A stretch of DNA of 64,000 bases from Chitinispirillales bacterium. Lineage in GTDB: Bacteria > Fibrobacterota > Chitinivibrionia > Chitinivibrionales > Chitinispirillaceae. The DNA lies in assembly GCA_031254105.1 (NCBI GenBank), contig JAIRVB010000021.1:62001-126000 (forward strand), read 5' to 3'. The notes beneath the pieces are model-generated. The model worked only from the letters and a program-made list of their open reading frames with translations, searched no databases and was not told the DNA's origin. A program made the position numbers and the translations under genes. Positions 49,178 through 62,144 of this stretch are shown here, piece by piece. Within the stretch, counting starts at the first letter, position 1. Each line of letters opens with the position of its first letter.

Positions 49178-50758
49178 CTAACTTGACACGTTTAATACAA
49201 TGTCTTTATTGTGTTCAGTAAAAAACTGTAAATGCCAGTCACTTGGGAAAAGCAGAACCCTGCGTTCATCTTTGTCAAGAGCAAGCTTAACGCCCATGGG
49301 GATATGCAATTTATTTTCATCTATTAATACACTGCTTTTAATCCACCTTACCATTGTCCAGGGGGTTTGTTCTATACGTGACGCCGCCCCATACTCTGTT
49401 TCAAGCCTGTATTGAACCAGATCAAACTGCAGCGGTCCCACTGCCCCAAGGAGAGGTAGTTTCTGATGACCGGATGGAATCTCAAAGAGATGAATAAGCC
49501 CCTCCTGAACGAGCTGCATAAGTCCTTCACGAAAACGTTTGTAGTTTGACGGATAAGGATTATGCAGGTAGGCAAAACATTCCGGCGGAAAACGCGGTAT
49601 CTCATTATAAGCTAATCCGGCGTCTTCGCTCAGCGTATCGCCTATGCAGAGAAGATCCGTACCCACAACACCAATCACATCACCCGCGTAAGCCTCATCG
49701 ACAGATGTGCGTTCACGGCCAAAAACATTGCTTGAGTTGGATAAGCGCAAGCTCTTTCCCGTACGCACATGAATGACCGGCATATTGCGTGTAAATTCAC
49801 CGGATACAATTCTGACAAACGCCATGCGGTCACGGTGTCTGGGATCCATATTTGCCTGAATCTTAAAAACGAAACCGGAAAATTTTTCATGGTCAGGTTT
49901 AACGGCTGTTTCTCCGCTGTATCTGGGAAGCGGCGGCGGTGAGAACTCTAAAAATCCGTCAAGCAGAAGCTGCACCCCGAAATTATTTGCCGCGCTGCCG
50001 AAAAAAACGGGCGTTGTTTTGCCTGCAAGCACATCTTCATGACTAAAAGCCGCGCCAGCGTGCTCAACCATTTCTATCTCTTCACAAAGAGTATTGTAGA
50101 CGGAATCACTCAATCCGTTTTTGACCACAGGATCAGAGATACCATGAGTTGCGACTGGAGCGCGGTAAACGCCGCCCGGAGTGCGTTCATAAAAGTAAGC
50201 TTGTCCGGTTCTGCGGTCAAGCACCCCTCTGAAGTCCACTCCTGAACCAAGAGGCAAATTCATGGGATACGCGTTTATTTTTAACACTTGCTCTATTTCG
50301 TCAAGTATAGCCAGCGTATCAAGAGCAGGGCGGTCAAGCTTATTTACAAAAGTGAATACGGGAGTATTTCGTTTCCTGCAAACTTCAAATAGTTTACGGG
50401 TTTGATTTTCGATACCTTTTCCCGCGTCAATTACCATAATAACGGAATCAACCGCCGTAAGCACCCTGTAAGTATCTTCAGAGAAATCCTTATGGCCGGG
50501 AGTATCAAGCAGATTAACCCGGTAACCATTGTAATCAAAGTTAAGCACCGTTGAGCTTACGGATATCCCGCGCTTGCGTTCCAGCTCCATCCAGTCTGAG
50601 ACAGTGGCGCGCTCTTTCTTTCTGGCGGTAACTGAACCAGCTTCATGTACCGCTCCTCCATAGAGCAGAAGCTTTTCGGTTATCGTGGTTTTTCCGGCGT
50701 CAGGGTGAGAAACTATTGCAAAGGTTCTGCGGCGGGAAGATTCTTGTGAAATTGACAT
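49178..50758 (-). CDS. prfC: Peptide chain release factor 3
   Basis: GTPase that recycles RF1/RF2 from the ribosome. G1 is SHPDAGKTTITEKLL, the switch RKKERATVSDWMELERKRGISVSS follows, G3 is LLDTPGHKDFSEDTYR and G4 is FVNKLDRPALD. Domain II follows, and the PLLGAVGPLQFDLVQYRLE motif is RF3-specific. 526 residues, full length. It is monocistronic and bracketed by two inverted copies of a 133-bp MITE-like element. Confidence 0.97.
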   Translation of the reverse strand: MSISQESSRRRTFAIVSHPDAGKTTITEKLLLYGGAVHEAGSVTARKKERATVSDWMELERKRGISVSSTVLNFDYNGYRVNLLDTPGHKDFSEDTYRVLTAVDSVIMVIDAGKGIENQTRKLFEVCRKRNTPVFTFVNKLDRPALDTLAILDEIEQVLKINAYPMNLPLGSGVDFRGVLDRRTGQAYFYERTPGGVYRAPVATHGISDPVVKNGLSDSVYNTLCEEIEMVEHAGAAFSHEDVLAGKTTPVFFGSAANNFGVQLLLDGFLEFSPPPLPRYSGETAVKPDHEKFSGFVFKIQANMDPRHRDRMAFVRIVSGEFTRNMPVIHVRTGKSLRLSNSSNVFGRERTSVDEAYAGDVIGVVGTDLLCIGDTLSEDAGLAYNEIPRFPPECFAYLHNPYPSNYKRFREGLMQLVQEGLIHLFEIPSGHQKLPLLGAVGPLQFDLVQYRLETEYGAASRIEQTPWTMVRWIKSSVLIDENKLHIPMGVKLALDKDERRVLLFPSDWHLQFFTEHNKDIVLNVSS

Positions 50759-50795
50759 TTATAGATGCTCCAAAATAAAAAACGAACAATTTTTA

Positions 50796-50928
50796 CATCC
50801 TCTCGCGAAGGCGGGGGTCTGCTGTTCTTAACTGATATGGCGGAACGATCACAGATCGTTTCCTACATTAGGACAACGGATCGCCTTACGGTTTCAATAA
50901 ACACGGTACCGCCTTCGCGGGAATGATG
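50796..50928. mobile_element. MITE-like element, full copy upstream of prfC
   Basis: 133 bp with terminal inverted repeats CATCCTCTCGCGAAGGCGG (50796-50814) and CCGCCTTCGCGGGAATGATG (50909-50928). It carries an internal hairpin of the GGAACGATC type at 50842-50863. Orientation is opposite to the copy at 49008. Confidence 0.75.
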
Positions 50929-50959
50929 TTCACACATACTTTTGTGGTGGAAGTAAAGC

Positions 50960-50978
50960 GGGCGGCCACTGACCGCCC
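50960..50978. repeat. REP-like palindrome, GGGCGG type
   Basis: GGGCGGCCACTGACCGCCC with CCTTACG on the right, the inverted family flank. It lies 66 bp beyond the stop of the carboxyltransferase-BCCP gene. Confidence 0.7.
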
Positions 50979-51043
50979 CCTTACGATGGAATATTACGGT
51001 AATGGATTTTTTTTATTTATACATTGTACATTATACATTGCCT

Positions 51044-53035
51044 TTAAACCTCTTCTATCCCAATTAACGGTTGATCTTTATCAACAGCGCTTCCGTCCGT
51101 AACAAGAACTTTGATAACTTTGCACCGCACTGGAGCGGAAATTTCATTAAAGAGCTTCATCGCTTCTACAATGCAAACTTTAGCTCCGGCTTCTATTACA
51201 TCGCCCTCTTTTACGAATGCCGGCTTGCCCGGGCCGGGAGCGCTGTAAAACGTACCAACAAGCGGCGCGTTTATAGTTTTGCTGAACTCCTCTTTTTTAA
51301 CCTGCGCCGGTTTTGTTGAAGCTGCCGGTGCGGGAGCGGCAGTCGCGGCTGCGGAGGTGGTTACTGTCATGTCAAGCGCCGGAAGAGCGGCTGCCGCTGA
51401 GTACTGCCCCGCGGGTTTGACTAAAATATTATAATCACCTTTACGGAACACAATCTCCTCAACAGCAAGCCCATCTATCTTCTGAAGAAGTTCACCCGCA
51501 ACTCCTTCAATGTGCAGCTGTTGCGCGGCGATGGCTTTAGCTGCCGGTGAAGCATCATCTTCAATCTCATCTTTCTTTACAGGCTCATCAGCTTCCTTTT
51601 CCCATTTCATAACTTTTTTCATCTCTATATCAGCAGGGATTTCAGGACGTTTATCAGCGGGAAGAGCTCTCCATTTAAAATATTCGAGCGCCGGTTCCGG
51701 AAGAAGCACGTACGAAATAATATCCTCTTCACCATGGATAAAAGAGGGATCGACTCCATCGGTAGCTTTTGGAAGCATAGGGCTTAACCTGTCGGCAGGT
51801 CTGTAGTCAATAGGAGCTTCATCACCCAGAATTCTTTTTGTTATGGCAGGATCAATCGGCGCGGGTGACCGTCCGTAAAGTCCTTTTACATAATCTTTTA
51901 CCTCATTCGGCACGATCTTGTAACGCTCGCCGGAGATGACATTCATCACCGCCTGAGTGCCGACTATCTGACTTGTGGGGGTGACAAGCGGGGGAAAGCC
52001 CAAATCCTCGCGCACCCGGCTGACTTCGTTCAGCACCTCAGGAAGTTTGTCAAGCGCTTTCTGCATTTGCAGCTGCGAGCGGAAGTTTGAAATCATTCCG
52101 CCAGGTATCTGGTGAATAAGAATCCCGGGATCAATAAATGATACTGGTGAGGGAGCCGCGCTGCGTTTTAAAGCAAGTTCCGCGAAGTATTTTGCTATTT
52201 TCTCCAATGCTTCCATGTCAAGCGAAGCGGCATAGTTTGTTTCGGAAAAAATGGCGACCATGGTTTCCACAGGAGGCTGAGAGGAGAAGCCTGACATCGG
52301 AGAGATAGCGCAATCAATAGCTCCTGCTCCGGCGCGTACACCCTCAACATACGACGCGACACCCATACCGCTTGCCGAATGGCAATGCAGCTGAATAGGA
52401 ATATCAAGCTCCTTAATCAGAGCGGAAACCAAATGCTCCGCAGCTATGGGAGAGAGAATTCCCGCCATATCTTTTATACATAACGAATCGATCCCGAGAG
52501 CGACCTGTTCTTTTGCGTATTGAACATACTTTTCTACAGTGTGCACAGGAGAAGTCGTGTAAGCAAGCGTACCCTGAGCGTGACCGCCATGCTTTTTAAC
52601 AGCTTTAATGGCAGCCTCGAGATTGCGTGTATCGTTAAGAGCGTCAAACACCCGGAAAATATCAATTCCGTTTTCGCACGAAAGCGCTACAAACCTGTCA
52701 ACCACATCATCGGCATAGTTGCGGTAGCCTACAAGATTCTGTCCCCTGAGAAGCATCTGTAAAGGAGTATTCTTTGCTTTAGTCTTGATAAGCCGCAGCC
52801 GCTCCCAAGGGTTCTCACGTAAAAAACGGAGACAGACGTCAAAAGTCGCTCCTCCCCACATCTCTAACGAATAATATCCGACATTATCAATAACATCTAT
52901 AATGTTAAGCATATCTTCTGTTTTCATGCGCGTGGCCCATAATGACTGGTGAGCGTCGCGCAGAGTCGTGTCGGTAATCCTCAGAGGAATTTTATGCAGC
53001 AGATCTTCTGTTTTGTTTTTTGCAGTTTTTGTCAT
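51044..53035 (-). CDS. Oxaloacetate decarboxylase/pyruvate carboxylase-type carboxyltransferase fused to an AccB-type biotin carrier
   Basis: 663 residues. Residues about 15-290 are the HMGL-like TIM barrel (DTTLRDAHQSLWATRM, HCHSASGMGVASY, the KDMAGIL metal-site region). About 300-500 is the conserved PYC_OADA domain. About 515-545 resembles the N-terminal part of AccB (ELLQKIDGLAVEEIVFRKGD). After an Ala/Pro linker the biotinyl domain (about 585-660) reads PLVGTFYSAPGPGKPAFVKEGD and CIVEAMKLFNEI with biotinyl Lys627. The GTFY and EAMKLFNEI motifs are AccB-like rather than the shorter OadA-like carrier. It is the third gene, 24 bp after accA, in accD-accA-this. It could serve pyruvate/oxaloacetate carboxyl transfer, acetyl-CoA carboxylase, or both. 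Confidence 0.88.
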   Translation of the reverse strand: MTKTAKNKTEDLLHKIPLRITDTTLRDAHQSLWATRMKTEDMLNIIDVIDNVGYYSLEMWGGATFDVCLRFLRENPWERLRLIKTKAKNTPLQMLLRGQNLVGYRNYADDVVDRFVALSCENGIDIFRVFDALNDTRNLEAAIKAVKKHGGHAQGTLAYTTSPVHTVEKYVQYAKEQVALGIDSLCIKDMAGILSPIAAEHLVSALIKELDIPIQLHCHSASGMGVASYVEGVRAGAGAIDCAISPMSGFSSQPPVETMVAIFSETNYAASLDMEALEKIAKYFAELALKRSAAPSPVSFIDPGILIHQIPGGMISNFRSQLQMQKALDKLPEVLNEVSRVREDLGFPPLVTPTSQIVGTQAVMNVISGERYKIVPNEVKDYVKGLYGRSPAPIDPAITKRILGDEAPIDYRPADRLSPMLPKATDGVDPSFIHGEEDIISYVLLPEPALEYFKWRALPADKRPEIPADIEMKKVMKWEKEADEPVKKDEIEDDASPAAKAIAAQQLHIEGVAGELLQKIDGLAVEEIVFRKGDYNILVKPAGQYSAAAALPALDMTVTTSAAATAAPAPAASTKPAQVKKEEFSKTINAPLVGTFYSAPGPGKPAFVKEGDVIEAGAKVCIVEAMKLFNEISAPVRCKVIKVLVTDGSAVDKDQPLIGIEEV

Positions 53036-53059
53036 AGGGGAAACCCTTTTAGCGTTAGG

Positions 53060-54013
53060 TTATTTGGTGAACTTTCCCATGGACGAGAATTTTTCAAATC
53101 TTCTGGCAGTCAATTTTTGACCTGAAAGAGTTGTTAACTTTTTAAGATGTTTAAGTATCGCGGCCTTAACAGCTTCTGCTGCGGCAGCCGGATTGTTGTG
53201 AGCGCCTCCGGCGGGCTCTTTTATTATTTCATCGATTACTCCAAGAGAAAGCAGCGATTTTGCCGTAATCTTTAAGCTTTCAGCGGCGTTGGACGCATAA
53301 GCCGCGTCGCGCCATAAAATAGAGGCGCACCCTTCAGGCGATATAACGGAATACACCGCGTTAGAGAGCATCAAAACAACATCCGCCACACCTATCCCCA
53401 GAGCGCCGCCGCTTCCGCCCTCACCTGTCACAATGGCTACGACAGGGATCTCAAGTTTCGCCATCTCAGTGAGGTTACGCGCTATAGCTTCAGCCTGACC
53501 GCGTTCCTCCGCGTCAAGACCGGGAAAAGCTCCGGCAGTATCTATAAATGTTACGACAGGCAAATTAAACTTTTCAGCCAACCGCATGAGCCTTATAGCT
53601 TTTCGATAACCTTCGGGCCGCGCCATGCCGAAATTTCGCTTTACATTTTCATCTACATTTTTACCTTTGCTGTGTCCGATAAGCATAACCTTCTGAGTAC
53701 CCAGCGTCGCAAATCCCCCTACCATAGCGTGATCATCGCCATAGCAGCGGTCGCCGTGCAGCTCAACAAAACTGGTAAATATCATAGATATATAATCGTA
53801 AAGCACAGGACGGCGTGGATGACGCGCTACCTGAACCGTCTGCCAGGGCGTGAGCGTATCATATATCTCCTCCTTCCGCTCCTCGCACTTTCTTTCAAGT
53901 TCCGCAATCTGATTGAAAAAATCACCCTTATTGTCAACCGCAAGGGCTTTAAGCTTTTCTATCGCTTTTTCCATCTCAGCGATAGGCTTTTCAAATTCAA
54001 GCTCACGTTCCAT
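53060..54013 (-). CDS. accA: Acetyl-CoA carboxylase carboxyltransferase subunit alpha
   Basis: With AccD transfers the carboxyl group from biotin to acetyl-CoA. The coiled N-terminus (LEFEKPIAEMEKAIEKLKAL) precedes QTVQVARHPRRPVLYDYI, LHGDRCYGDD, FIDTAGAFPGLDAEERGQAEAIA, the oxyanion GEGGSGGALGIG and SPEGCASILW. 317 residues, complete. It starts 9 bp after accD and is followed by the fused biotin carrier, so accB is effectively supplied by the third gene. accC is not in the window. Confidence 0.96.
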   Translation of the reverse strand: MERELEFEKPIAEMEKAIEKLKALAVDNKGDFFNQIAELERKCEERKEEIYDTLTPWQTVQVARHPRRPVLYDYISMIFTSFVELHGDRCYGDDHAMVGGFATLGTQKVMLIGHSKGKNVDENVKRNFGMARPEGYRKAIRLMRLAEKFNLPVVTFIDTAGAFPGLDAEERGQAEAIARNLTEMAKLEIPVVAIVTGEGGSGGALGIGVADVVLMLSNAVYSVISPEGCASILWRDAAYASNAAESLKITAKSLLSLGVIDEIIKEPAGGAHNNPAAAAEAVKAAILKHLKKLTTLSGQKLTARRFEKFSSMGKFTK

Positions 54014-54022
54014 GGATGTTCC

Positions 54023-54859
54023 TTACCGGTTGTAATATGAAAGAATGGTGAAAAGAGTCTCTTTCAAATCTTTTCTGTGAACGATTTTGTCAACAAAACC
54101 ATGCTCCTTAACAAATTCGGCGGTCTGAAAATCTTCAGGCAGCTTCTGTTTTATGGTTTGTTCTATCACGCGCCGTCCGGCAAATCCTATAAGCGCGCCA
54201 GGTTCAGCCAGATTTACATCCCCAACCATTGCGTAAGAGGCTGAAACGCCACCGGTTGTCGGATCTGTCAGAACTGATATAAACGGAATTTTTCTCTCGT
54301 CAAGACGCGCTACGCCTGCGCATGTTTTAGCCATTTGCATAAGCGATAATATCCCCTCATGCATTCTGGCTCCGCCGGAAGCGCTGAAGATAATGCATGG
54401 CACGCGGTTGTCATAAGCATAGTTTGCCGCTTGTAAAATTTTTTCTCCTGTGCCGGATCCAAGACTTCCGCCCAGGAACCGAAAATCCATAACTCCCATA
54501 ACAACGTTAAGTCCGTTAATTTTGCCGCTGCCCGTAACTATTGATTCATTAAGTTTTGTTTTAGCTCTGGCAGTTTCCACCTTTTCGCTGTATGGACCTT
54601 TGCCATCTACAAATTGCAGCGGATCGCACGGCCGAATCGTTTCAAACATCTCTTTAAATGTACCGCTGTCAAGTATCATGCCGATCCGTTCGTAAGCGGT
54701 CAACTTTCCGTGCCAGTCGCACTTCGGACAAACATTAAGGTTGTTGGTGAAATCCTGGCGAAACACATGAGCGCCGCAGGACTGGCACTGAATCCAGATA
54801 TCGTCCTTTAGCTTCTTTTTAGCCTCGCGCTCCGATTTGGTTTTGATAAACCAAGGCAT
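54023..54859 (-). CDS. accD: Acetyl-CoA carboxylase carboxyltransferase subunit beta
   Basis: N-terminal zinc ribbon (CQSCG ... CPKCDWHGKL, about 23-47) followed by the crotonase-like domain with ARTKLNESIVTG, FRFLGGSLGSGTGEKI, FSASGGARMHEG and TDPTTGGVSASYAM. The ATG at 54859 has GGGGGA upstream; an earlier start adds only six residues. 278 residues. First gene of the accD-accA-carrier operon. Confidence 0.96.
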   Translation of the reverse strand: MPWFIKTKSEREAKKKLKDDIWIQCQSCGAHVFRQDFTNNLNVCPKCDWHGKLTAYERIGMILDSGTFKEMFETIRPCDPLQFVDGKGPYSEKVETARAKTKLNESIVTGSGKINGLNVVMGVMDFRFLGGSLGSGTGEKILQAANYAYDNRVPCIIFSASGGARMHEGILSLMQMAKTCAGVARLDERKIPFISVLTDPTTGGVSASYAMVGDVNLAEPGALIGFAGRRVIEQTIKQKLPEDFQTAEFVKEHGFVDKIVHRKDLKETLFTILSYYNR

Positions 54860-55051
54860 ACTCAATCCCCCTGTCACGGGTTATTATTCGACACTCGCGT
54901 CAAAAAGCCCAAATATAATGTAACAAAGTAATATAAATAATGCAGATGTAATAGTGCGGAACTTGTTTGTCCGGAGCGTCAATCTGTTAGAAAAGTCTAT
55001 GTTTCTGTATGTTACATTCGAGATAATATTCGGTATATAACAAGATGGAAT

Positions 55052-56089
55052 TTAATTAAAAGTTTTGTTTGACACACTATTTTTCCATCCCTGCGATATA
55101 TGCGTCTTCCCTTCGGAATCTATCACAATACACTCAATGCCATCCCTTGCTTGTACAAATTCCAGTATCTCCTTCGCGCTGAGGCAGAACAGTCCGGTAC
55201 TGTAGATGTCGCTTTTTACAGGGTCTGTTGTCCAGATTGTAAGGCTTTGGTTTGTGACGCAGCTATAGCCTGCTGATGGATCAAAAATGTGGTGATACCG
55301 CTTTCCGTTAACGATTCTGAATCGTTCATAATCGCCGCTTGTGACAATGGCGCCGTTTTGCAGTGGGAGGGTGGCAAGTAACGCATTCCGGTCTCTTGGA
55401 TGTTGAACCCCGATCACCCAGGGTGCACCATCCTGTTTCTCTCCGCTTACAACAATATCACCTCCGGCGACGACAAGGAAGTTGTTGATGCCTTTGCTTT
55501 TAAGAAGATCATAAAGTTGACTGAGAATGTATCCTTTAGCAATTCCTCCGACATCTATTTTTGTTAGCGGCGATTCAAAAAATATGCTGTCTTTCGCTTC
55601 ATTCACACTTACCTTTTTGTAATCAACAGCCTTGACCGCTTCCCTCACCTGAGCGGAATCGGGCAAAGTTTCATCATCACCTCTCTTTTCGCCAAATCCC
55701 CAAAGCTCTTTTAATGGAAGGACAGTTATATCAAACGCTCCGTTAAGAGTATCACCATAAGCAAGCCCTGAATAGAGAATCTCACCAAGCTCCCGTGATA
55801 CAGGGAGAGCGGCTGTCCCGTTACGTTCGTTGAGAACTCTAACTTCGGAATCGATACCTGTTACTGAAAACCGCTTTTCACTCTGCGACAGTAGGGAATC
55901 AACCGCTCCCCAAATCGGCTTTGTATCAAAGCCGTGTGGTACGGAGAGAGTAATCTCCGTTATTGTATCCATTCGGAAGAAGATTCGTTTACGGTGAATA
56001 TTTCCTGAACATGAGATAAGAATTATCGAGGATATACAAAAGAGAACAATCAATAAAAACAGTTTTATGGATTTTTTGACTTGTGCCAT
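55052..56089 (-). CDS. apbE: ApbE-type FAD:protein FMN transferase, lipoprotein
   Basis: Attaches FMN to Thr of flavoproteins such as RnfG/NqrC in the periplasm. Lipoprotein signal with Cys27 (LISCSG). Motifs: MDTITEITL, KIDVGGIAKGYIL, FLVVAGGDIVVSG, HHIFDPSAGYSCV and the metal-site SDIYSTGLF. 345 residues. It overlaps the hisA-like gene by 25 bp, an odd partnership. Target flavoproteins are not in the window. Confidence 0.93.
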   Translation of the reverse strand: MAQVKKSIKLFLLIVLFCISSIILISCSGNIHRKRIFFRMDTITEITLSVPHGFDTKPIWGAVDSLLSQSEKRFSVTGIDSEVRVLNERNGTAALPVSRELGEILYSGLAYGDTLNGAFDITVLPLKELWGFGEKRGDDETLPDSAQVREAVKAVDYKKVSVNEAKDSIFFESPLTKIDVGGIAKGYILSQLYDLLKSKGINNFLVVAGGDIVVSGEKQDGAPWVIGVQHPRDRNALLATLPLQNGAIVTSGDYERFRIVNGKRYHHIFDPSAGYSCVTNQSLTIWTTDPVKSDIYSTGLFCLSAKEILEFVQARDGIECIVIDSEGKTHISQGWKNSVSNKTFN

Positions 56090-56832
56090 TTTACTACATC
56101 TGAAAAAGATAATTTACCTCCGAATATATCAAGGCTGCTGCCTATAGTCACATCAACGCGGGCCATTCCAAGTTTCTCAACAAGATCAAGATCGCCCAGA
56201 CCGCGTACCCCGCCCGCGTAAACAACCGGAAGCGGGCAGCATTCCGCTAAAAGCGAAATAAGCCGCGGATCAATACCGGCTTTTAATCCTTCCACATCAG
56301 CGGCATGGATTAAAAACTCATCACAGCTGTCTGAAAGACGTTCAAACAGGCTTGATGATAATTTTTCTTTTGTTAAGCACTGCCATCTATCGGTAACAAT
56401 AATATAGTCATTCCCCGACCTGCGGCAGCTCAAATCCAAAACAAGTTTCTTTTTTGGAACAGCCTTAAGCAACTCCTCAAGCCGTTCCCATTTTATTACC
56501 CCGTCACTGAATACGTATGAGGTAACAATAACGTGTGATGCGCCTGCATCAATAAAAAATTGGGCGTTCTCAGGCCGTATCCCTCCGCCAACCTGTAAAC
56601 CTCCGGGAAAAGCGGTGAGCGCACTGAGCGCCGCCTCCTCATTACCGGGGCCGAGCATTATCACATGTCCGCCGATGAGCTCCTCTTTTTTATACATCAG
56701 CGCGTAGTGGGCGGGAGAAAGGTCCGTCTCAAAATTAGTGATAAGCTCTGCGCTGCTATTATCAGAGAGAGTTCCTCCGACAATCTGTTTTACTTTACCG
56801 TTGTGCAGATCGATGCATGGTCTGAAACGCAT
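56065..56832 (-). CDS. hisA: Phosphoribosylformimino-5-aminoimidazole carboxamide ribotide isomerase, eukaryotic (HIS6) type
   Basis: Fourth step of histidine synthesis. The sequence follows yeast HIS6 rather than bacterial HisA: PCIDLHNGKVKQIVGGTL, HVIMLGPGNEEAA, LQVGGGIRPENA, VIVTSYVFSDG, LVLDLSCRR, FLIHAADVEGLKAGID and TIGSSLDIFGG. Typical bacterial HisA starts IPAIDL.dG and lacks the HIKLGPGN segment. 255 residues, complete. No other his gene is nearby. It is translationally coupled to apbE. Confidence 0.9.
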   Translation of the reverse strand: MRFRPCIDLHNGKVKQIVGGTLSDNSSAELITNFETDLSPAHYALMYKKEELIGGHVIMLGPGNEEAALSALTAFPGGLQVGGGIRPENAQFFIDAGASHVIVTSYVFSDGVIKWERLEELLKAVPKKKLVLDLSCRRSGNDYIIVTDRWQCLTKEKLSSSLFERLSDSCDEFLIHAADVEGLKAGIDPRLISLLAECCPLPVVYAGGVRGLGDLDLVEKLGMARVDVTIGSSLDIFGGKLSFSDVVKWHKSKNP

Positions 56833-56836
56833 AGTT

Positions 56837-56942
56837 AAAACTGGTTTCCAGTTACCGGTTTCCTGCTGCCGGTTTCCAGAAAAAAAGAGAGAAATGAGGT
56901 TTTTCTTTTAACTGGAGACTGGTAACTGAAAACTGGTAACTT
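56837..56942. repeat. Inverted AACTGG micro-repeat block
   Basis: The left half carries TTTCCAGTTACCGGTTTCC and the right half AACTGGAGACTGGTAACTG, AAAACTGGTAACTT, so the block is a degenerate inverted repeat of about 100 bp in the hisA leader. Same family at 35439 and 60130. Confidence 0.6.
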
Positions 56943-57099
56943 ACTATGAAATTGCTGGTAACTTATATTATCTTAATATAGTATTTGGAGAGTTCAGTTT
57001 TTAACTCGCTAAAGTATTCGTTCAATGTATTGTCTAATAACGACTGACCATTGGCCAACAGTCACTAAATTATTTATACATTATACAAGAGGGGGTTTC

Positions 57100-57858
57100 A
57101 TGCACTTGAGATCAATTGTTGCGGTTTGCGGTGTTCTTGCTATTATGGTTGGCTGCGGCGGAGGCGGAGGCGGCAAGATTACTGAGGTGGTTGAAGAGAC
57201 CCATGAGAACGGGGCTAAGAAAAAGGTTGTCGCTTTTGCGGGTCAGCGGACTAACATAGTACGCACTACATTCTTTTCCCCTGATGGCAATATGTTATCG
57301 GACCAGTTCTTCAAGAAGGGCGAACCCGACAGCCTCAAAACAATATACTTTCCTAATGGCAGCATTAACCAGCAGACAAATTTCTCGGCAGGCAAAAAAC
57401 ATGGCGCGGAGAAGTCCTGGTATCAAAGCGGACAGCTCAGAAGCGAAGCTGAATTTGTAGAAGGCGCGCCGGTTGGAAAGTACTTCAACTATTTTGAGGA
57501 TGGCAAAGTTTCGCTTGAGGTCAACTTTCAAGATGGGAAGAAACATGGTGAAGAGATAGAATATTACGCTAACGGAAACAAGAAACGTATTAGAACCTAT
57601 GCTAACGGCGATATGGATGGAGTAGAACAGGAGTTCTTCGATGATGGTAAGATGAAGGCGGAGCACACATACTCTAAGGGCACACTCAACGGCCAATTCA
57701 CATTTTATGACGCGAAGACCGGAAGAAAGATAGAAGATGGTTTATACCAGAATGGTCAATACCACGGCAAGAGAGCGATGTACGACGCGGCATCTGGCAG
57801 AAAAAGATCAGAAGCGACCTATGAAAATGGGGTCAGAACTTTTGGTGAATTCTTTTAA
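57100..57858 (+). CDS. MORN-variant repeat lipoprotein
   Basis: Lipobox ending in Cys19 (AIMVGC), then GGGGGG. From about 30 to the end there are eight or so MORN_2-type repeats of about 23 residues with the NG..h.e..Y.NG pattern (GKKHGAEKSWYQSGQLRSEA, GKKHGEEIEYYANGNKKRIR and so on). Envelope-attached, role unknown, possibly an antitoxin-like or structural repeat protein as in Fusobacteria and Bacteroidetes. ATG 57100 is preceded by GAGGGGG. A possible -35/-10 (TTGCTG, 16 bp, TAATAT) lies at 56952-56979. A hairpin terminator follows. Confidence 0.8.
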   Translation: MHLRSIVAVCGVLAIMVGCGGGGGGKITEVVEETHENGAKKKVVAFAGQRTNIVRTTFFSPDGNMLSDQFFKKGEPDSLKTIYFPNGSINQQTNFSAGKKHGAEKSWYQSGQLRSEAEFVEGAPVGKYFNYFEDGKVSLEVNFQDGKKHGEEIEYYANGNKKRIRTYANGDMDGVEQEFFDDGKMKAEHTYSKGTLNGQFTFYDAKTGRKIEDGLYQNGQYHGKRAMYDAASGRKRSEATYENGVRTFGEFF

Positions 57859-57919
57859 CAATGATTATATGGGCGCGGGATAAGGCAGCTACGCAGGTTT
57901 GCCCGCACACCCTTCTTAG

Positions 57920-57945
57920 GGAACGATCAACGATCGTTCCTTTTT
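57920..57945 (+). terminator. REP-like palindrome serving as terminator
   Basis: Arms GGAACGATC and GATCGTTCC around AAC, then TTTTT. Left flank TTAG. Same core as the hairpin inside the MITE-like element at 50842, here ending the MORN gene. Confidence 0.7.
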
Positions 57946-57957
57946 CAATAATAATCA

Positions 57958-59448
57958 TCACCTGAAATTCCACACCCCCGGCTGTTTATTCGCAATCAAC
58001 TCCAAAATTTCCTCCTGCATTATCCAGTTGTCAAACTGACCGGTACCTGCGTCATTAAGTATGATTGTAAACGCGTAAGTTTTATCATCCAAAAAAAGAT
58101 ATCCGGCAAGTGTGCTTACTTTTAAGGAATTGAGCGTTCCGGTTTTAGCTCTAACTCTGCCTTTGAGTTTTGAGCGGTTAAACCTTGTTTTAAGCGTTCC
58201 GTCAATTCCGGCGGCGGGCAGTGCCGCGATAAAATCGGGGTAATAGTTTTTTTGTTTTGATACGTAAGCAAGAAGCTCCGTTACTTGGGCGGCGCTGATA
58301 CGGTTTACGTCTCCCATGCCGGACCCGTTAGCCATCTCAAGTTTTGCGGGAAGCCCACGTTTCTCCCACCAGTTTGAAACAGCGGATACCCCCTTGGGCC
58401 ATGTTCCGGGCTCTCCGCGCTCTTTTGCGCCCATTGTTTTGAAGAGCATCTCGGAAACGAAGTTGCTTGACCATTTAAACATGTGGCCTATAAACACCGG
58501 CATAGGTTCGCTGTCGAATATATAAAACGGCCCCTTCGCGATAAGGGAATCAGGCACTTTCGCCCGTACGGTTTTCCCTGCGATACGTAAATCACTTTCT
58601 GTACACTGTGCTCTAAGCGCCCCGCCGAATGTTTCCCAAGTCTGCCATACCCGGCGGTAAGTGTACCTCGGTTTCTCATTGATAGCCATGTTTCCTCTGA
58701 CAAGTATCTGCGTAGCGCCGGAAGAGAGTGATGTAGATACATCAAGACGGCCCCTTGATCCATCGACGGTTTTTGCCGAAGAGCTTATCCTGACCCCTTC
58801 GATTTTTGGAAACATATCTACATGCACAGGTGATCCTGCATCCTGACCCGGTCTGTGGTGGATCCCTACAGCGCTGAAGCTGACAGGAAGCGCGCTTATA
58901 AGAGACTGGTAGGCGCGGCTGCCATCTTCCTCTGAAAAGCCCGGTCCTACGCTAACGGAGTCAAAGAAAAAATCATCGAGCACAAGATTTCCGCGCACAG
59001 CTTTAATACCCCTGTGGCGCAGATGCTGCACAAAAAGCCACAACCTTTCCGCGCTGAATCCAGGATCGCCAAAACCTTTAATATACAGGTTTCCATTGAT
59101 CACGCCTGAATCGCTGTTGAATTTTCCATCAATGTAAACACGGGTCAGATGCAGGAAATCAAGCCCAAGTAATTCAAGGGCTGCTGTACCCGTTACAAGC
59201 TTAGCTACTGATGCGGGGTTAAGAAGCGTGTCGGGGTTTATTGAGACAACAACCGAATCATTTCCCAAGTCCTTAATAACAATGCCGATCCCTCCGCCGG
59301 TATATTTACGTAACTTGAGAAGTTCGGCGACGCTCTGTTGCATAGAAGCGAAACATGCGCCGCAGCATACAATGAGAGAAAGTATTACGATTGAATGAAC
59401 AGAGGTTTTGAAATTCATTTTTCCCTTTTTGCTCTTTTTTGTTTCCAT
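57958..59448 (-). CDS. dacB: D-alanyl-D-alanine carboxypeptidase/endopeptidase, PBP4 family
   Basis: Peptidase family S13. The SxxK motif is NPASVAKL (S80, K83), SxN is in KWSSNFVSE and KTG is in RAKTGTLNSL. A signal segment (about 13-35) exports it. The domain insert between SxxK and SxN is present, so 496 residues is full length. ATG 59448 has GGAAG five bases upstream; the TTG four codons earlier has none. Confidence 0.93.
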   Translation of the reverse strand: METKKSKKGKMNFKTSVHSIVILSLIVCCGACFASMQQSVAELLKLRKYTGGGIGIVIKDLGNDSVVVSINPDTLLNPASVAKLVTGTAALELLGLDFLHLTRVYIDGKFNSDSGVINGNLYIKGFGDPGFSAERLWLFVQHLRHRGIKAVRGNLVLDDFFFDSVSVGPGFSEEDGSRAYQSLISALPVSFSAVGIHHRPGQDAGSPVHVDMFPKIEGVRISSSAKTVDGSRGRLDVSTSLSSGATQILVRGNMAINEKPRYTYRRVWQTWETFGGALRAQCTESDLRIAGKTVRAKVPDSLIAKGPFYIFDSEPMPVFIGHMFKWSSNFVSEMLFKTMGAKERGEPGTWPKGVSAVSNWWEKRGLPAKLEMANGSGMGDVNRISAAQVTELLAYVSKQKNYYPDFIAALPAAGIDGTLKTRFNRSKLKGRVRAKTGTLNSLKVSTLAGYLFLDDKTYAFTIILNDAGTGQFDNWIMQEEILELIANKQPGVWNFR

Positions 59449-59534
59449 TACCACTTCCAAATTTTATTTTAGAAGGGCAATATAAAAGGCCATAGTAACT
59501 TTAATATATTTTAACAACCCGGGAGCTACTGAAA

Positions 59535-59753
59535 ATGTCAAAATACGCTATTGCATTCATCACACCAACAAAAAAAATACAACTTCGCCACAAGATTGTC
59601 GAAGGTGAAAACAAAGATAGTGCGCTAAGACGCTTTTTTAATGAAAACGCCAGCGAATTTTACTCTAACGATGAACATGGGTACATATACTTTAAAGAAG
59701 ATTTCTACGATGAAACTACAGGTTCGGGAAGCATAATCGAACTTGGCGAGTAG
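59535..59753 (+). CDS. Small acidic protein of unknown function
   Basis: 72 residues (MSKYAIAFITPTKKIQLRHK ...), with a beta-strand-rich start and an acidic Asp/Glu/Tyr end. GGGAG lies nine bases before the ATG. No signal peptide, no family recognised. Divergent from dacB. Composition and ribosome site argue for a real gene. Confidence 0.6.
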   Translation: MSKYAIAFITPTKKIQLRHKIVEGENKDSALRRFFNENASEFYSNDEHGYIYFKEDFYDETTGSGSIIELGE

Positions 59754-59815
59754 CAGCGCAGCTGGGGTGTCCGCACATATCACGTAACCATGTACACCTT
59801 ATGTATTCGATATAA

Positions 59816-59892
59816 GGGCGGTAACCTGCCGCCCGCATATCTTGCGTTTCTGTCATGTGCGGTATACAAAAACGGGCGGCCAACAGCCGCCC
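59816..59892. repeat. Two inverted REP-like palindromes
   Basis: GGGCGGTAACCTGCCGCCC at 59816-59834 with left flank TATAA, and GGGCGGCCAACAGCCGCCC at 59874-59892 with right flank TTACATG. They face each other in opposite orientation 39 bp apart, between the small gene and ferredoxin. Confidence 0.75.
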
Positions 59893-59921
59893 TTACATGT
59901 ACTTATCCTCCGCCAACGCTT

Positions 59922-60089
59922 TTATGCCTGGCCGATAGCCTCAGCGGGGCAGCTATCGACGCAGGCGCCGCAGTCTGAACACGCGGATGAATCAATAGTG
60001 TATGGGCTGCTTTCTTTAATGGCGTCGCAGGGACACTCGGGCAGGCAGCTCCCGCAACAAAGACACGCGTCTGAAATTTTGTGGGCCAT
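59922..60089 (-). CDS. 2[4Fe-4S] ferredoxin
   Basis: 55 residues starting MAHKISDACLCCGSC. Two C-x2-C-x2-C-x3-C-type clusters are visible: residues 9-21 (CLCCGSCLPECPC, with one extra Cys) and 37-47 (CSDCGACVDSCPAEAI). It is a clostridial-type low-potential electron carrier. GGAGG lies eight bases upstream of ATG 60089. It is short enough to be missed by length cut-offs. Confidence 0.92.
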   Translation of the reverse strand: MAHKISDACLCCGSCLPECPCDAIKESSPYTIDSSACSDCGACVDSCPAEAIGQA

Positions 60090-60129
60090 TCTGTTTACCT
60101 CCTTGAAATTTAGTGAATAAGTTAATCAA

Positions 60130-60172
60130 GTTATAAGTTTTCAGTTACCAGTTACGGAAAAAGACTGAAAAC
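60130..60172. repeat. AACTGG micro-repeat
   Basis: AGTTTTCAGTTACCAGTTAC then GGAAAAAGACTGAAAACT, upstream of the ferredoxin gene. Same family as 35439 and 56837. Confidence 0.55.
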
Positions 60173-60286
60173 TATCTAATTATACTTTTTGCGGAGGGAG
60201 AATTCCAATATTTAGAGCGCGGTTTACCGTTTTTACGGGGTTGTATCAACATTTAATAATGTATTGATTGCAAATTTAAAGTTTGC

Positions 60287-60597
60287 TTACAATGCCCATA
60301 AAATAAATTCCGCATTTTCACAACAACTCATCGCTTTGATAACTTCCCCATAATTTAACGGTAAAACTGTGGATAACGAATCATAAAATTGCTGATACGA
60401 AAAATGTTCGGATGGTAAAATTAAAACCTCATCATTAAAAACAGCACCAATGCGACATCATCAAGAGAAGGCCCTTCATCTGTTGTCAAGATTGAAACCT
60501 ACTGTAATATTTTAAGCGGATATTTTTGTCCGTTATGAGTTACTGTATTATCATGTATTGTTAATAATTCATTCTGCTCAACCACAACCGTTTTCAT
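60287..60597 (-). pseudogene. Small gene broken by an amber codon and a -1 frameshift
   Basis: From ATG 60597 the frame reads MKTVVVEQNELLTIHDNTVT ... KILQ, meets TAG at 60501-60499 and continues in the same frame as TTDEGPSLDDVALVLF. There a run of five T on the minus strand (60437-60441) needs one more T to continue as NDEVLILPSEHFSYQQFYDS ... AEFILWAL-TAA. The restored product would be about 103 residues, no family recognised. It lies between rpoD and the ferredoxin gene, and nothing else is seen in that gap. Confidence 0.55.
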
Positions 60598-60602
60598 TTG
60601 TT

Positions 60603-62144
60603 TTATTCCTCAAACGTATCATCCGTCAAAGTCTCCGACCTCTCCTCCCGCCAGGCAAGCAACCTGCGCACTCTGCTGGGATGTTTAAGTTTTCCAAGCG
60701 CCTTAGTTTCAATCTGCCGCACCCGCTCGCGGCTTATGTTGAACACTTCACCGATCTCTTTAAGCGTTTTTATCCTTCCGTCATCAAGCCCAAACCGCAT
60801 CATAACTATCTCTTTCTCTTTTGTAGCCAGAGATTCGAGCACCTGTTTTATCTGTTCGCGCAGGTGAAGCAAAGAGATTTTTTGTGTTGGATCGATAACG
60901 TTTGAGTCCTCTATGTACTCTCCTACAGTTGTTCCGTTTTCCCCTCCTACTTCCATGTCAAGGGAGATCGGTTCTATCGAATACTCAAGCGCCATCTGTA
61001 CTTTTGCGACTGAGCAGCCAAGCTCATCTGCAAGTTCCTGGTGAGTAGGTTCGCAGCCATATTCCATAACCCAGTTGCGGCAAAGACGCACGGTTTTATT
61101 GACAAGTTCCATGGTGTTAGCCGGAATGCGTATCGCTTTTGACTTATCGTTTATAGCGCGTGAGATCGCCTGACGGATCCACCATGTCGCGTAGGTTGAA
61201 AACTTGTAGCCTTTGCGGTAATCGAAATTTTCAACCGCTTTAATAAGGCCGCGGTTTCCCTCCTGTATGAGGTCAATAATTTCCATTCCGCGCAAGATAT
61301 ACTTTTTGGCGATACTCACCACAAGGCGTACGTTGGCTTCGATAATCGCACACTTGGCCTGGTTTCGCATCTCTTCCCAGTGAGAGAACGCTTCTAGTTC
61401 CGTTTCGCGGCTGTCGGAGAGAAGAGACACCTTGTATTTGTCAAGAATATTTTCAACTTGTTTACAATTAAGCTTGAGGTTTCTGCACAAAACAACAGCC
61501 TCATCCATAAGAGCATTGATTTTTTCCTGCTCTTCAGGGACATTGGCGTTTCGCATCTCCGCAGCAGCTTTGTTTTTCCTTCTAACCATAGAGAGTGTGC
61601 GCAGGAAATCTTTGCGCAGAATTTCGAGATCCTCAATCTCTTTGGCGGATTCTTCGTCAAGCTGCAGTACGTCCGCGCACTCCACTTCACCGTTTTTAAA
61701 CTCTTCTCCTAATATGTAAAGACTCTCAAGCGCCCGCGGAGAGCGAAAAGCCATGTCAAAGAGTTTGCTTTGAGCATACTCCATCTGCATAGCATACTCA
61801 ATCTCCTGACCCTTTGAGAGAAGAGGAACTCTGCCAACGCTGTTAAGGTAGACCCAGGTGGGGTCAGTGTAGCGTGGTGGTTTGCTGGCGGAGAGCATAC
61901 GCCTTGCGCTGCGTTCGTAAAGAGGAACCGGCTTTTCCTTTACAAAGGAATTAATAGTGATCTCTTCCCGTTCAAGTATCTCTCTTACCCGCTCAAGCTC
62001 TGTAGCGGATGTAGCCACATCTTCAATCTGCGCCTCGGTAACAAACCCCTGCAGGGTCGCTAGTTTACGCAGCCGCAACGTGACTTTGTCAGAAGTCTGA
62101 TTTTTTGTTTCTACTTTGGACACGGGTTCTTTTTTTCTGATCAT
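60603..62144 (-). CDS. rpoD: Primary RNA polymerase sigma factor (sigma-70)
   Basis: Region 1.2 is [20 protein letters not shown], followed by a shortened non-conserved region. Region 2 is [38 protein letters not shown] and [18 protein letters not shown]. Region 3 and region 4.2 ([29 protein letters not shown]) follow. No long acidic region 1.1 is seen; the N-terminus has a short Lys-rich domain. The ATG at 62144, five bases after the dnaG stop, gives 513 residues. Co-transcribed with dnaG, as in many bacteria. Confidence 0.95.

Follow-up and report, generated by a model that had tools for sequence, protein, structure and literature searches.

A HIS6/HISN3-type HisA of a Chitinispirillales bacterium belongs to a bacterial subfamily that is usual in Fibrobacterota

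We analysed a stretch of 64,000 nucleotides from the draft genome of a Chitinispirillales bacterium (hereafter the window), and we consider it very probable that its hisA gene is the sole functional hisA of the cell, that the gene product works by the chemistry of yeast His6 and plant HISN3, that this HIS6 type is a bacterial subfamily which replaces canonical HisA and has undergone some horizontal exchange, that eukaryotes are its likely recipients, and that the overlap with an apbE-like gene is an arrangement at the level of the bacterial family. The predicted enzyme would catalyse the fourth step of histidine synthesis, the isomerisation of ProFAR to PrFAR, and its acid/base pair would consist of Asp8 in strand 1 and Asp133 in strand 5. 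The HIS6 type is a patchy but widespread form of bacterial HisA and the usual one in Fibrobacterota. The features of the window and of related loci are collected in Table 1.

Table 1. Coordinates of the features discussed in the text
Feature	Position	Strand	Remarks
hisA, HIS6/HISN3 type (TIGR02129)	56065..56832	(-)	255 aa, ATG start; ProFAR isomerase, predicted
Asp8 codon	56809..56811	(-)	first catalytic Asp, equivalent to Medicago Asp57, shared with canonical HisA
Asp133 codon	56434..56436	(-)	type-specific second Asp
Ser135 codon	56428..56430	(-)	where canonical HisA has its second catalytic Asp
ApbE-like FAD:protein FMN transferase	55052..56089	(-)	N-terminus lipoprotein-like by reading; gene immediately downstream of hisA
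hisA end/apbE start overlap	56065..56089	(-)	25 bp
HisHF fusions in four carriers	L151:350-1942, L152:716-2446, L153:667-2316, L154:278-1912		frames of 530-576 aa, HisH + HisF domains

A preliminary description of the window had claimed that the gene encodes an enzyme of the HIS6 type and not the common bacterial HisA. Both parts of this claim held: the open reading frame and its strand were given correctly, the quoted motifs HVIMLGPGN, HAADVEGL and SSLDIFGG are present, and the protein aligns with yeast His6 over its full length. The results of hmmscan with NCBIfam showed that the protein is a member of TIGR02129 (hisA_euk, an equivalog model; 353.8 bits, cut-off 229.3), while it stayed far below the cut-off of TIGR00007, the common bacterial HisA (53.9 bits, cut-off 228.95), and below that of TIGR00735, HisF (22.2 bits, cut-off 294.55). 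When PDB sequences were searched with phmmer, the best match was Medicago HISN3 (9fcf, 296 bits) and the second was yeast His6 (2agk, 211.7 bits, residues 2-252); the third, a HisA (4gj1), scored just 40.6 bits. Pairwise identity was 56% between the window HisA and plant HISN3, 48% between the window HisA and yeast His6, and 46% between the plant and yeast enzymes.

The structure of the window HisA was predicted from a 32-row alignment as a TIM barrel (mean pLDDT 93.2, pTM 0.90). The solved chains closest to the model were 9fcg (Z 39.9), 9fcf (Z 38.9) and 2agk (Z 33.5), and the next chains after HISN3 and His6 were HisF and canonical HisA at a Z of about 26. Plant HISN3 resembles the model with rmsd 1.6 (9fcg) and 1.5 (9fcf) over 254 and 252 residues and shows the same Asp/Asp/Ser pattern, except for an engineered D57N; it differs in a numbering that runs 49 residues ahead (Asp57 against Asp8), which reflects an N-terminal extension that we take to be for plastid targeting, and in small insertions near residues 24 and 62 of the aligned part. 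Yeast His6 (2agk) resembles the model with rmsd 1.3 over 226 residues and has the same layout of catalytic residues. Canonical HisA shares the barrel fold (Salmonella HisA 5abt, Z 26.0) and presumably the reaction, but it carries Asp instead of Ser at the second catalytic column, and a very long branch separates the two types.

The preliminary description presented the gene as a eukaryotic oddity in a bacterium, a framing that the distribution of the HIS6 type does not bear out. TIGR02129 was matched above its cut-off in 152 of 167 genomes of Fibrobacterota, the phylum to which NCBI assigns the Chitinispirillaceae, and in none of 14 control genomes. No match above the cut-off was obtained in the other 15 Fibrobacterota genomes, among them G001, which is 88% complete and the sole other representative of the window's genus. 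Among 389 relatives that are at least 90% complete, 100 exceeded the cut-off, 94 within the phylum and 6 outside it; outside Fibrobacterota the type therefore occurs in 6 of 290 sampled genomes, where the denominator was derived by subtracting the 99 same-phylum genomes listed from 389. We also scanned genome_contigs by pattern, which gave at least 594 matching stretches, at least 577 of them encoding a relative by tblastn. The titled loci kept are the best 80 of these at least 577; the ranking was by likeness to the plant sequence, so the sample leans plant-ward. At E <= 1e-40, all 80 matched TIGR02129 and nothing else in NCBIfam. According to their titles, these best 80 loci represent Fibrobacterota and 12 other bacterial phylum labels: Thermodesulfobacteriota, Bacillota (many Lachnospiraceae, Cohnella, Paenibacillus), Pseudomonadota (Endozoicomonas), Verrucomicrobiota, Kiritimatiellota, Lentisphaerota, Latescibacterota and Myxococcota, together with one metagenome-assembled genome (MAG) each of Armatimonadota, Gemmatimonadota, Nitrospirota and Planctomycetota, although MAG labels may be wrong and the Gemmatimonadota MAG pairs closely with a Latescibacteria one. 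None of the open-access literature matches listed dealt with how the HIS6 type is distributed among bacteria. The window gene is an unexceptional member of an established family, and what is out of place is the "eukaryotic" label and not the gene; the window HisA lies inside TIGR02129 by the curated cut-off, and the "euk" in the name of that model does not match the observed distribution. The description of TIGR02129 reportedly explains the Fibrobacter gene by a transfer that took place in the rumen with plants as donors, and the distribution argues against such a plant-to-Fibrobacter transfer.

Three further occurrences were recorded. The relative GUT77 (Fibrobacteria bacterium; G023/G477) has two full-length HIS6-type copies, on contigs C134 and C185. 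Two HIS6-type hisA genes lie on contigs classed as viral. One of them (L147:2995-3771, IMGVR_UViG_3300037512_002016) falls with sequences of family f8, the largest Fibrobacterota family sampled and probably the Fibrobacteraceae; it is surrounded by short ORFs of about 100 aa, none of the seven tested having a Pfam match. The other (L148:2992-3741, IMGVR_UViG_3300028805_000101) is on a 72-kb contig directly after groEL, with an HSP20 gene nearby and then a lytic transglycosylase-like gene, and it pairs with the family-f8 sequence L021 (99/94). Both placements come from the second tree described below.

The preliminary description had left two alternatives for the phylogeny, namely that the eukaryotic type derives from such bacteria or that the gene moved the other way. 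The first fits better, as both eukaryotic sequences lie inside bacterial diversity, with the reservation that the root is uncertain and that only two eukaryotes were included. In the main tree (85 rows with 9 canonical outgroups; yeast and Medicago as the two eukaryotic sequences), the eukaryotes were found among bacteria at separate attachment points. Yeast grouped with Fibrobacterota of families f8 and f10 and two Verrucomicrobiae (99/88; the f8/f10/yeast set 99/92), and the plant stood beside a group of Armatimonad, Latescibacterota and Desulfobacter sequences (80/87). A second tree, which had no outgroup, contained two added viral-contig sequences and had a bootstrap that had not settled, likewise put both eukaryotes among bacteria. 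Forcing plant and yeast to be monophyletic cost 31.6 log units in the main tree (p-AU 0.085, not rejected) and 27.8 in the second (p 0.0086, rejected). The window HisA paired with a Fibrobacterota sequence (L084, 70% identity, support 100/98), and no eukaryote was among its five nearest rows.

The type has not simply been inherited vertically through Fibrobacterota, a scenario that we considered and rejected. Fibrobacterota as one clade was rejected (p 0.0024; with yeast added, p 0.0056), and four family-f7 sequences (L033, L036, L041, L047) grouped with Endozoicomonas and Parendozoicomonas (100/96, 100/97), which suggests transfer between phyla. The branch joining the HIS6 type to canonical HisA has a total length of about 10 changes per column. 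Because the root is weak, the direction of transfer to eukaryotes rests mainly on nesting and breadth; since the two eukaryotic sequences lie inside bacterial diversity, transfer from bacteria to eukaryotes is favoured, and we infer that eukaryotes most likely received the HIS6 type from bacteria. An ancient transfer from an early eukaryote to bacteria, followed by spread among phyla and making eukaryotes the source of the whole type, would agree with the fact that both eukaryotic enzymes are of this type, with its patchiness outside the phylum, with a root that is not firmly placed, and with the plant-to-bacterium precedent proposed for HisHF in PMC1963479. We nevertheless judge it improbable, as plant and yeast, at 46% identity, are less similar to each other than to some bacteria (up to 62% for the plant and 54% for yeast), and they attach separately inside bacteria, their monophyly being rejected in one of the two tests above.

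The yeast sequence has a long branch, and f8/f10 rows were nearest to it in every tree that contained it; in quick trees they were still nearest after the plant or f10 had been removed, and in these quick trees no starred set holds yeast. Yeast His6 differs from the window HisA by the signatures TSW.F, N.WQT and YAGGA, which it shares with family f8 (15/16, 15/16 and 16/16 sequences) and family f10 (2/2 each). The plant signatures TSY.F, D.WQK and YAGGV were found in family f1, which includes the window genome together with G002 and GUT77, in 9/11, 5/11 and 5/11 sequences, and this pattern is not specific, since among the 76 other bacterial rows it is also the one seen most often (Y in 62, D.WQK in 48, V in 46); all signatures were matched by simple patterns, with mis-hits in some rows. 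The neighbours of the plant changed between the main, second and quick trees, and therefore no plant donor is named. A tentative reading, which we hold to be possible but rather doubtful, is that eukaryotes acquired the bacterial HIS6 type more than once, the fungal enzyme from an f8/f10-like donor (probably Fibrobacteraceae-like), the plant enzyme from a different bacterial lineage, and neither of them from the ancestor of mitochondria or of plastids. On this reading, given the bacterial counterparts of HisHF, more than one eukaryotic his step may come from such a bacterial source.

HisHF fusions (HIS7 type) were found in 4 of 32 HIS6-type carriers, Desulfobacter latus (G457), Desulfobulbus (G460), Desulfosudis (G467) and G299. 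For two of these fusions, comparison with PDB sequences gave yeast His7 (1jvn) as the best match, with 568.6 and 576 bits, the next matches having 181.5 and 172.5 bits. Some bacteria thus hold both predicted enzymes of eukaryotic type, HIS6 and HIS7. An association between the two was not seen: full-length fusions occurred in 3 of 389 genomes, that is, 1 of 100 carriers and 2 of 289 non-carriers. A 537-aa ORF beside hisA on the viral contig L148, considered as a HisHF, turned out to be GroEL. Fani et al. 2007 (PMC1963479) describe HisHF in two delta-proteobacteria as grouping with plants and propose transfer from plants to bacteria.

To examine the catalytic residues, we aligned 113 members of the type (the window HisA, plant, yeast and 110 bacterial sequences) with 9 canonical HisA. 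The Asp8 column holds D in all 9 canonical HisA and, with one exception, throughout the type (112 of 113); the exception is the plant chain, engineered as D57N according to its PDB title. The Asp133 column, two residues before the canonical strand-5 Asp column, holds D in 113/113 type members versus 0/9 canonical HisA, and the Ser135 column, where all 9 canonical HisA have D, holds S in 113/113. The window HisA has the full D8/D133/S135 pattern, and the Trp150 column is common to it and canonical HisA. The conservation of the motifs HxGKVKQI and GSALDIFGG is partly due to the search patterns used for the loci, and the Asp133 and Ser135 columns lie outside those patterns. The yeast His6 structure paper (in Protein Sci, 2006) reportedly named Asp9 and Asp134 as the catalytic pair and remarked on the shifted position; from the numbering we take Asp134 of yeast to be Asp133 of the window HisA.

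Canonical hisA (TIGR00007 above cut-off) was present in 0 of 32 carriers of the HIS6 type (0/10 and 0/22). The 27 genomes searched with TIGR00007 comprised 10 carriers without canonical hisA, 9 other genomes with it, and 8 with neither type above cut-off. Three Fibrobacterota (G041, G165, G166) have canonical hisA and lack the HIS6 type, and in three others (G061, G160, G162; 92, 95 and 98% complete) neither type exceeded its cut-off while a match in the hisF range was present; a third form, an assembly gap or a loss is possible there. The TIGR00007 cut-off, reached in 11 of 14 controls, is not fully sensitive; among the 32 carriers, TIGR00007 matches of at least 85 bits always coincided with a hisF match, so that no divergent canonical hisA is found among them. 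In Cohnella luojiensis (L091) the HIS6-type gene stands in the cluster hisG-hisD-hisB-hisH-hisA-hisF-hisIE, and hisF directly follows HIS6-type hisA in 5 of the best 80 loci (L074, L075, L091, L105, L115). Because no canonical hisA exceeds the cut-off in carriers and the gene takes the his-cluster slot in Cohnella and adjoins hisF, context points to the same function, and these findings support the conclusion that the HIS6 type replaces canonical hisA in its carriers.

The genome of the window itself is a draft of 56 contigs. The preliminary description had suggested looking for a second, bacterial-type hisA, and none was found: besides the window gene on contig C5, a PF00977 profile search returned just hisF on contig C53 and three weak barrel matches, TIGR02129 had one match, and TIGR00007 had none above cut-off. 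The hisF of this genome (L001:1456-2253) encodes HisF of the separate kind, with no HisHF fusion, and scored slightly below the curated HisF cut-off (284.7 versus 294.55), as did hisF of GUT77 (279.6 bits). With hisD on contig C52 and hisB on contig C54, the four his genes looked for (hisA, hisF, hisD, hisB) lie on four separate contigs, so a hisA outside a his operon is normal here; the earlier remark to that effect was correct but unremarkable. No other his gene was recognised beside hisA when ORFs of at least 90 aa in 50000-62000 were read, four of them being covered by the HMM scan and the remaining ones judged by reading. The window gene thus appears, from these searches, to be the only HisA in a genome in which hisF, hisD and hisB are present.

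These data also bear on whether the gene might be a drifted paralogue, a TIM-barrel protein with a changed substrate that is not the HisA of the cell. The replacement of the canonical second catalytic Asp by Ser135 could be read in this way, as could the Butyrivibrio sp. INlla21 locus (L114:2288-4774), in which the order is dapA, dapB, HIS6-type hisA and the gene adjoins no his genes. However, the same Ser and the equivalent of Asp133 occur in yeast His6 and plant HISN3, substrate and product complexes of HISN3 have been deposited (PDB titles), the searches of the genome found hisF, hisD and hisB but no second HisA, and in the Cohnella cluster the type occupies the place of hisA; we consider such drift very unlikely. 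A recent eukaryotic source (plant matter or fungi) of the gene in this bacterium or its closest relatives, which the 56% identity to plant HISN3 and the full-length likeness to yeast His6 might call to mind, is hardly credible in view of the 152 of 167 Fibrobacterota genomes that carry the type, the 12 further phylum labels among the best 80 of at least 577 loci, and the Fibrobacterota sequence nearest to the window HisA, and a single recent plant-to-bacterium transfer is rejected on the distribution.

Finally, we assessed the neighbouring gene. The preliminary description had reported an overlap of hisA with a flavin-transferase gene and proposed that the two are translationally coupled. The 25-bp overlap is there, and the assignment needs qualification: since the ORF scored 140.5 bits with the NF007774 equivalog, whose cut-off is 498, we call it ApbE-like rather than assign it to that exact equivalog. 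With the window ApbE as tblastn query (E <= 1e-4), an apbE homologue was found after hisA in 8 of 10 relatives of the same family (L023, L024, L025, L028, L032, L034, L035, L116); it was absent beside hisA in L026 and L084, and none turned up in the flanks, of up to 4 kb, of the loci from the other 100 relatives. The length of the hisA-apbE junction is not conserved (-25, -8, +2, +2 and +66 in five relatives; the start is ambiguous in three). The apbE adjacency is an arrangement at the family level and not a feature of the HIS6 enzyme type. It is plausible that hisA and apbE share one transcript, and no functional or biochemical link between HisA and ApbE is evident. A gene for a MORN_2-repeat protein also lies near hisA both in the window (57025-57858) and in the closest relative (L084:6492-7268), on opposite sides.

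Taken with the distribution, the hisA_euk annotation label conceals that this subfamily is broadly bacterial and takes the place of canonical HisA. The two types would form a natural pair of enzymes for one reaction, in which the second acid/base Asp is shifted within strand 5. With many bacterial sequences to compare, the origin of step 4 of histidine synthesis in fungi and plants becomes a testable question.
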